DNA from: Actinomycetota bacterium
Lineage (GTDB): Bacteria > Actinomycetota > Acidimicrobiia > Acidimicrobiales > Acidimicrobilacustridaceae
Reading direction: 5' to 3'
Assembly: GCA_005787345.1 (NCBI GenBank)
Contig: SYBH01000021.1
Coordinates: 1 to 51,741, forward strand
Length of the DNA: 51,741 nt
The translations under genes and the position numbers were made by a program. Below are positions 12,297 through 13,964 of this stretch, piece by piece. The notes under the pieces were generated by a model, which was not told where the DNA came from, did no database searches, and saw nothing but the letters and a program-made list of their open reading frames with translations. Each line of letters starts with the position of its first letter. The stretch's first letter is position 1.

Positions 12297-13234
12297 GACC
12301 GTTCCGCGATTCGAAGTCGAGCGCTTTCAGCACGTGGGTTGCTCTCACGTTCGGCTGCGCTCGGCGTGGTTCCACCGCGACGGACAAGCCGAACCGTCGA
12401 CTTAGCACCACAAACGCAGGGAAGGTTCGTGGGGCAGGTGCAGCCACCAGACTCTGCATCGCGCATGACCTGCTTGACGATGCGATCTTCGCCGGAGTGA
12501 TAGGACAAAACCACCAAACGGCCAGCAGGAGCCAATGAGTCGATCGCCGCTTCAAGAGCAACGGGAAGCACACCGAGTTCATTGTTCACTTCTATGCGAA
12601 TCGCCTGAAACGTTCGCTTGGCCGGATGCCCGCCAGTTCGGCGTGCAGGTGCAGGAATCGCATCTCGAGTGATTTCTGCAAGTTGCGTAGTCGTTTCCAC
12701 TGGACGGGCAGCAATGATCGCTCGGGCAATACGTCCAGCAAAGCGCTCATCGCCAAACTCGCCAAGCACACGAGCAAGGGCCTTTTCGTCGTACTCATTA
12801 ACGACTGTCATCGCGCTAAGCGCACGGGATGGATCCATCCGCATGTCGAGGGGCGCATCAAAGCGATAACTAAAGCCACGTTCAGCTCGGTCGAACTGCG
12901 GAGAGCTCACACCAAGGTCAAACAACGCACCAACAATGAGTTGACCGGCGAGTTCGGCATTGATGACCGACGCAATCGAGTCGAAACGGGCCTGCACGGT
13001 GCGAGCACGATCACCAAAAGGTGCAAGGCGTTCATTCGCAACTGCAAGTGCATCGGGGTCCTGGTCGATACCAAGTACCGAAAGGTGCGGGTAGGTCTCG
13101 AGAAGAGCCGTTGCATGGCCAGCGCCACCGAGGGTTGCATCGATGACCCAACCAGCCGGGACTGATTCGAAGGCCGCCACGATCTCGTCGAGCATCACCG
13201 GGCGGTGGTCGAACGATTCGCGGGTTGCGGCCAT
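12293..13234 (-). CDS. rsmH: 16S rRNA (cytosine(1402)-N(4))-methyltransferase RsmH (MraW)
   Basis: SAM-dependent methyltransferase acting on C1402 of 16S rRNA in the decoding site. Motifs: HRPVMLDE at the N-terminus, SAM site DATLGGAGHA and GIDQDPDAL, DLGVSSPQFD, RGFSYRFDAPLDMRM, and LSYHSGEDRIVK. I place the start at the ATG at 13234 (MAATRESFDH...; 313 residues, family size), with GAGAGG as ribosome binding site. The frame is open further upstream, but that stretch is the structured leader described separately. The leader suggests translation or transcription of this gene and the operon behind it is controlled. Confidence 0.95.
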   Translation of the reverse strand: MAATRESFDHRPVMLDEIVAAFESVPAGWVIDATLGGAGHATALLETYPHLSVLGIDQDPDALAVANERLAPFGDRARTVQARFDSIASVINAELAGQLIVGALFDLGVSSPQFDRAERGFSYRFDAPLDMRMDPSRALSAMTVVNEYDEKALARVLGEFGDERFAGRIARAIIAARPVETTTQLAEITRDAIPAPARRTGGHPAKRTFQAIRIEVNNELGVLPVALEAAIDSLAPAGRLVVLSYHSGEDRIVKQVMRDAESGGCTCPTNLPCVCGAKSTVRLVRRGGTTPSAAERESNPRAESARLRIAERS

Positions 13235-13249
13235 AACAGATACCTCTCG

Positions 13250-13395
13250 CTGCTGAGCCAGTCGGCAGAGCCGGTACCGGTCCTCAGCAGTCCCTCGGAA
13301 CACCGGCGCCCGCCGGGATTTCTCCCCGGTCGGGCTCGATGGGAAGCGGGCGGAGTAGGGGCCTTCCATCGTGTGTTCCGAGAGACTGCTGAAAA
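13250..13395 (-). promoter_or_regulatory. Structured RNA leader of rsmH with mutually exclusive stems
   Basis: On the minus strand 13373-13391 pairs with 13285-13303 over 19 bp with one G-U pair, closing a 69-base region. Inside it are two further hairpins: 13363-13371 with 13337-13346, and 13325-13334 with 13309-13317 (7-base loop). The 3' arm (13283-13290, CTGCTGAG in the RNA) is also perfectly complementary to CTCAGCAG at 13250-13257, which lies next to the GAGAGG ribosome binding site. Two exclusive folds are therefore possible. A conserved actinobacterial mraW RNA motif is known upstream of this gene; whether this is the same element or a different one cannot be told here. Confidence 0.65.
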
Positions 13396-13416
13396 TCGGG
13401 CGACCGGCTCGGTCGC
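13392..13416 (-). terminator. Terminator-like hairpin in the mraZ-rsmH leader
   Basis: A perfect 7-bp hairpin (GCGACCG, loop AGC, CGGTCGC on the minus strand, 13416-13400) is followed by CCGATTTT (13399-13392). It lies about 50 bases after the mraZ stop and just before the first arm of the rsmH leader stem. The short U-run makes it weak; an attenuation role is an inference. Confidence 0.4.
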
Positions 13417-13467
13417 AGGAGTGGTCCTTTCGTTGGTGGGTCAGGGACAAAGGGGACATGACACGGA

Positions 13468-13887
13468 CTAGAGCCCCAAGGACGTAACGGCTTGAGTGAG
13501 GCTGTCGTCGGCGAGTGATGCTTGGTCGTTCCAGCGACCTGCGTTCCAGATCTCGATCCGTCCAAAGGCGCCAATGACAACGGCTTCTTTGTCGAGCGAG
13601 GCGAAATCGCGCAAGCGCTGGGGAATGGTGATGCGGCCTTGTGAATCGGGTCGGACTTCGTGGGCATTGGCGGCGAAGGCACGGAGCGATTCCTGGCTGG
13701 TTTCACCCGAACGGACCTTGTCCTGGAGTCGGGTGGCCATTTCGCCAAAGCCTTCTTCGGTCCAGAGGCCAAGACAGCGGTCGAGCTGGGAAATGAATCC
13801 CTTATCGACCAACTGGGCGCGGAAGGTCGCGGGAAGGACCACTCGGCCCTTGTCATCGAGCGAATGCTCGAACGTCCCAACGAACAT
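13468..13887 (-). CDS. mraZ: Transcriptional regulator MraZ
   Basis: DNA-binding repressor of the dcw operon made of two SpoVT/AbrB-type half-domains. The 139-residue frame starts MFVGTFEHSLDDKGRVVLPA (first DxKGR half-site) and repeats the pattern at RPDSQGRITIPQRLRDFA. ATG at 13887. It is the first gene of the cluster, behind a promoter that carries GTGGG repeats of the MraZ-box type, so autoregulation is likely. A 233-base leader separates it from rsmH. Confidence 0.95.
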   Translation of the reverse strand: MFVGTFEHSLDDKGRVVLPATFRAQLVDKGFISQLDRCLGLWTEEGFGEMATRLQDKVRSGETSQESLRAFAANAHEVRPDSQGRITIPQRLRDFASLDKEAVVIGAFGRIEIWNAGRWNDQASLADDSLTQAVTSLGL

Positions 13888-13935: not shown

Positions 13936-13964
13936 ATATTGCCCCACTTCCCCCCACTTCGCAA
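13936..13964 (-). promoter_or_regulatory. mraZ promoter with two MraZ boxes
   Basis: Reading the minus strand: TTGCGA (13964-13959), 17 bases, CAATAT (13941-13936), an acceptable -35/-10 pair. Between them lie two GTGGG repeats at 13957-13953 and 13947-13943, exactly 10 bp apart. A third GTGGG is at 13916-13912 in the leader. MraZ is known to bind tandem TGGG-type repeats with about 10-bp spacing in its own promoter, so binding here would block RNA polymerase. Confidence 0.55.

Follow-up and report, generated by a model that had tools for sequence, protein, structure and literature searches.

A conserved structured RNA in the rsmH leader of Acidimicrobiia, possibly a feedback element that imitates the 16S rRNA target of RsmH

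The window analysed here is a stretch of 51,741 nucleotides from an Actinomycetota bacterium of the class Acidimicrobiia (assembly GCA_005787345.1, contig SYBH01000021.1). On its minus strand, the spacer between mraZ and rsmH (mraW) forms the leader of the latter gene, and it is this leader that holds the features collected in Table 1. Its most conspicuous feature is a long stem, P1, in which minus-strand positions 13373-13391 pair with 13285-13303 through 18 Watson-Crick pairs and one G-U pair. This 19-bp stem and the two sub-hairpins that it encloses, P2 and P3, had been described in the initial annotation, and both the sequence and the fold of the leader bear the description out. The longest stem in the leader reaches 20 bp, against a maximum of 11 bp among 60 mononucleotide shuffles. 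The fold of the whole leader (233 nt) has a predicted energy of -113.3 kcal/mol (z = -5.8), and none of 200 dinucleotide shuffles was equally stable.

Table 1. Features of the mraZ-rsmH region in the window, with positions counted from its first nucleotide.
Feature	Position	Strand	Remark
Whole conserved element	13277..13398	-	Match to covariance model R1, 130.4 bits
P1, 5' arm	13373..13398	-	Inner 20 nt (13373-13392) paired without interruption
P1, 3' arm	13278..13303	-	Candidate start codon and purine-rich ribosome site here in 46/116 distinct members; AGG in the window
Hairpin P2 with near-invariant loop	13337..13372	-	
P2 loop core CUCCGCCC	13348..13355	-	
CCGCCCG, identical to the 16S rRNA stretch around C1402	13347..13353	-	C1402 equivalent at 13350
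Hairpin P3	13308..13335	-	Missing in several other families of the class
GAGAGG, likely rsmH ribosome binding site of the window, outside P1	13243..13248	-	
rsmH (mraW) CDS, 313 aa	12293..13234	-	Start ATG 13232-13234; named from the initial annotation and the relatives found
mraZ CDS	13468..13887	-	Stop 69 nt upstream of the element start
Terminator-like hairpin and TTTT	13392..13416	-	Limited to the nearest relatives
Partner of the alternative pairing with 13283-13290	13250..13257	-	Exact in 7/19 genus loci

Two side observations concern the flanks of the element. Throughout the leader the rsmH frame stays open, as far upstream as an ATG at 13459 (minus strand, 13235-13459), and an automatic annotation might therefore give the gene an overlong coding sequence. 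As a general explanation, an extended rsmH reading frame was rejected because other members, for example L144 and L156, have an in-frame stop between P1 and the start. Upstream of mraZ, the minus strand at 13941-13960 carries G-rich repeats, gaagtggggggaagtgggg, spaced about 10 bp apart. They resemble the repeats bound by MraZ, and autoregulation of mraZ through them is possible from the sequence.

Conservation of the structure was followed in the relatives of the window. A blastn search with the leader found 110 places in 109 of 198 relatives, and 90 of these places were read; in G080, a genome from another family of the order, the leader is still 91% identical over 64 nt. The 90 places, together with 11 of 80 named loci, gave a first alignment of 101 loci with 88 distinct cores, in which three helices are visible. 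Alignment A1, comprising 56 sequences drawn from these cores, shows two-sided changes in 39 of 47 base pairs. The cells with a two-sided change number 304, compared with 97.8 +/- 9.0 in 500 shuffles and with 35-69 in six controls in which the structure was slid along the alignment, a comparison that favours the true structure because it was drawn from the same sequences. P1 and both sub-hairpins are kept far outside the genus. The families that lack P3 (alignment A4, 16 distinct rows) have 49 two-sided cells, against 16.0 in shuffles, and RNAalifold recovers P1 and P2 from them unaided, though it places the innermost pairs of P2 in a different register. The two registers of P2 fit A1 equally well (91.9% vs 92.1% of helix cells paired). 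The leader is thus almost certainly a conserved structured RNA.

P1 itself is long, spanning 26 alignment columns with hardly a break in its pairing, as would suit a processing site, for example for RNase III, that separates the mraZ and rsmH messages. Such a site as the main function of P1 would leave both the conserved loop and the start codons within the stem unexplained, and is very improbable.

Transcription attenuation is a further reading of the leader. The initial annotation had proposed two mutually exclusive folds, one with a terminator and the other with an antiterminator, and the elements it named are present in the window: the hairpin followed by TTTT, the pairing of 13283-13290 with its partner over 8 of 8 bases, and the GAGAGG site of rsmH. 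Across the genus the hairpin and the alternative pairing are poorly kept, as found by reading the sequences. A GCGACC hairpin with TTTT occurs in 12 of 19 loci, one locus has a broken T-run and six have no hairpin; the alternative pairing is complete in seven of the 19, reaches 7/8 in six and is absent from six. Moreover, a consensus terminator scan yielded no terminator on the minus strand, its sole terminator-like site lying on the plus strand. P1 and the sub-hairpins covary in the relatives, while the alternative pairing and the terminator hairpin are not conserved across the genus, and attenuation by exclusive folds is hardly to be expected. Where the start codon lies inside P1, the geometry points to translation instead.

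How widely the element occurs was determined with covariance model R1. At E<=0.1 it has a match in 243 of the 296 class genomes sampled and in 125 of the 148 genera. Among the matches listed, each genome has one or two. A sample of the whole phylum gave R1 matches in 14 of 246 genomes, 13 of them in the class. The only match outside (L241, E 0.026) shows no CTCC[GA]CCC[GA] on either strand in the 120 nt to each side of its centre and was taken as a chance match, although the script used on it also missed L234 and L239, both of which carry CTCCGCCCT. Five genomes of the phylum sample have two matches, the second being on the opposite strand at the same place; in the class sample, the fragmented genome G592 has matches on two contigs among those listed.

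Of the 53 class genomes that R1 does not match, the 20 that were listed were examined, and 19 of these gave rsmH; the loop C[CT]CCGCCC is present in four of these 19 loci and absent from 15. By eye, several R1-negative members of the order have nearly no spacer after mraZ. Outside the class, 26 of 55 genomes gave loci, and none of the 26 has this loop in the stretch read, which runs from 260 nt before the start of the match to 30 nt after it. Two metagenome-assembled genomes titled Bifidobacterium breve (L036) and Acidobacteria (L045) have leaders about 91-92% identical to that of the window, and to judge by the sequence these titles are probably wrong.

The Acidimicrobiia leader RNA matches no Rfam family. 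The initial annotation had offered membership of the mraW RNA motif (RF01746) as one of two possibilities; the window has no RF01746 match at the gathering score of 50 bits and, on 13000-13700, no mraW match at E<=5, so membership finds no backing. Likewise, 16 related loci gave no Rfam match at E<=1, and ACTTCCCC, the terminal-loop sequence of the mraW consensus, is absent from the window leader. In the phylum sample, RF01746 matches 30 genomes, all outside the class. A table published in 2010 gives the mraW RNA of Actinomycetales as a probable RNA with a probable cis-regulatory role (PMC2864571), and its function was described as unknown in a paper of 2017 (PMC5640933). Like the window leader, it is a structured RNA upstream of rsmH, and in the hits compared (L111-L123) a CUC..CCG stretch near position 20 resembles the loop core of the Acidimicrobiia element. 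In the mraW RNA, however, this stretch is base-paired, and the consensus is one long hairpin with a terminal ACUUCCCC. The best match to CTCCGCCCG lies near position 20 in 11 of 13 mraW hits, with shuffles of single hits being as good in 5-79% of cases. For Corynebacterium glutamicum the RNA is listed as observed, and the transcript start detected there, at 2,266,932, is close to the 3' end predicted for the motif (PMC3890552); for C. diphtheriae a mraW motif is noted upstream of the transcription start (PMC5784534). These reports hint at a promoter near or below the mraW motif, a caution that extends to the Acidimicrobiia leader. A consensus scan of the region in the window gave no sigma-70-like promoter.

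Where translation starts relative to the element was surveyed together with the loop. R1 was searched on 132 loci, of which 128 (all except L045, L047, L050 and L051) were used, giving 116 distinct cores. In 46 of these members an in-frame ATG or GTG occupies one fixed place in the outer part of P1; in 67 it does not, and in three the frame was not found. These start codons are candidates by frame, and in some of the 46 a later start in the same frame exists as well. The median predicted probability of being unpaired in the 46 members is 0.000 for the ribosome site and 0.004 for the start codon, and 42 of them lie below 0.1 and 0.5, respectively. When the 5' arm is barred from pairing, the medians rise to 0.257 and 0.484. 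The conserved structure is thus predicted to close the start and ribosome site in these members; in the other 67, among them the window, P1 itself does not. The rsmH start of the window lies 43 nt past the element. Its GAGAGG and ATG are mostly paired by prediction, and the ATG remains so with the P1 arm blocked; opening of P1 as the window's own means of control therefore lacks support. Taking the members together, the leader quite probably controls the translation of rsmH.

A stem of this kind might also sense ribosome methylation directly, in that ribosomes without the C1402 methyl group would start on it poorly or differently, with no binding of RsmH. The starts within a strong stem in the 46 members would suit this mechanism, as does a preprint on B. 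subtilis which reports that stem-loop (cmpA) mRNAs need C1402 methylation by MraW for efficient translation (PMC13317604). Direct sensing would nevertheless make the feedback positive, and it gives no reason for the strongest conservation in the element lying in the P2 loop, well away from the start; it is an improbable account.

The conservation of the P2 loop is high throughout, with the reservation that the surveyed loci were drawn by blastn or by R1, which biases the counts towards the model: CTCC[GA]CCC is found in all 116 distinct R1 cores, CTCCGCCC in 111 and CTCCGCCCG in 109. The window's own assembly (82% complete) contains CTCCGCCCGCTT once, namely in the leader. Twelve genomes of one family whose loci have a GC content of only 29-33% all keep CUCCGCCC and all contain UACUCCGCCCAA. 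None of these 12 loci has ACTCCGCCCGC, so the last G is not kept there. Their AUG lies inside P1 and, by reading, in frame. In this family (L324-L335) the whole leader of about 90 nt is near-identical despite the low GC content of the loci.

The loop resembles a functional site of 16S rRNA. A 16S gene was found in six of 14 class genomes searched, and five full genes were used, the window's own assembly having none. All five contain ACACACCGCCCGTC, and when the 19-nt loop is compared with each of them without gaps, CCGCCCG in this stretch, with C1402 at its centre, comes out best, with a score of 7 against 6 for the next best. Among 20,000 shuffles of the loop, CCGCCCG appeared in 318, any 7-mer of the C1402 stretch in 854, and a 9/10 match to ACACCGCCCG in 24. 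The match is short and was noticed after the fact, and taken alone it is no more than suggestive. At the G1405 equivalent the low-GC family has A, and some members have T or another base; the G1401 equivalent is A in five of 116 distinct cores. Other bases of the loop are equally conserved with no 16S counterpart. Two other roles for the loop were considered. Pairing to 16S rRNA is not a general feature, as the complement GGGCGGAG is present in one of the five 16S genes only, and a kissing interaction of the loop CUCC with the P3 sequence GGAG, which looks possible on inspection, would have no partner in the several families that lack P3.

The rRNA stretch in question is the site of action of the protein encoded downstream, since RsmH methylates C1402 (PMC5053481). 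The substrate reported for the enzyme is the 30S subunit and not protein-free 16S rRNA (PMC5053481). A guess in the initial annotation, that the leader responds to a methylation-related signal, gains support in a more specific form, that of a C1402-like loop.

The element would, on this reading, be a cis-acting RNA between mraZ and rsmH that most of the class has retained and that controls the translation of rsmH. Surplus RsmH may recognise the P2 loop as an imitation of its 16S target CCG-C1402-CCG and, once bound, would hold the RNA closed and so lower its own synthesis; unmethylated 30S subunits would compete RsmH off the leader. In the form found in the window, where the start lies outside the element, a block would need a wider fold or would have to act on the access of the ribosome. 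Translational control of rsmH that is probably an autogenous feedback of RsmH by substrate mimicry has an even chance of being the correct account, and whether RsmH is the binding partner of the leader, as the sequence comparison suggests, is itself about evenly balanced.

Translation of rsmH might also be controlled through a loop whose reader is a small molecule, a small RNA or some other RNA-binding protein, with the 16S match being a coincidence in a C-rich loop. The structure and the start codon within P1 are independent of mimicry, conservation in the loop extends beyond the stretch that matches 16S, and the frequency of CCGCCCG among the loop shuffles is compatible with chance resemblance. 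Against this stand the position of the match, which no other site of the 16S gene equals in any of the five cases and which is centred on the very base that the encoded enzyme methylates, and the restriction of the loop complement to a single 16S gene. A different reader of the loop is rather unlikely.

Feedback by RsmH through its own leader would have parallels in known systems. The 16S methylase genes sgm and kgmB are reported to be under negative translational autoregulation (PMC2791848). They, too, encode methylases of 16S helix 44, but these are antibiotic-resistance enzymes that act at G1405, whereas RsmH is a housekeeping enzyme. The sgm leader is said to carry the hexanucleotide CCGCCC. 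In autogenous leaders of ribosomal proteins that use rRNA mimicry, the mRNA offers the encoded protein a site that resembles its site on the rRNA (PMC10931766). The loop described here similarly resembles the rRNA site of the encoded RsmH, with the difference that the protein is a modifying enzyme and its binding putative. In the literature searched, mostly without subscription papers, no title or abstract reports autoregulation of RsmH or this RNA.

The leader represents an RNA family that is strongly supported, matches nothing in Rfam and is tied to one conserved gene across a class. The broader proposal, that in most of the Acidimicrobiia RsmH, when in excess, binds a C1402-mimicking loop of the mRNA and so gauges how many unmodified 30S subunits are available, with the mraW RNA as a maybe diverged relative, is put forward tentatively, as being somewhat less probable than its opposite. 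If the mimicry is true, the expression of rsmH, which lies in the cluster for cell division and the cell wall, would be linked to the modification state of the ribosomal decoding centre, and a function that can be tested would be suggested for the mraW RNA.
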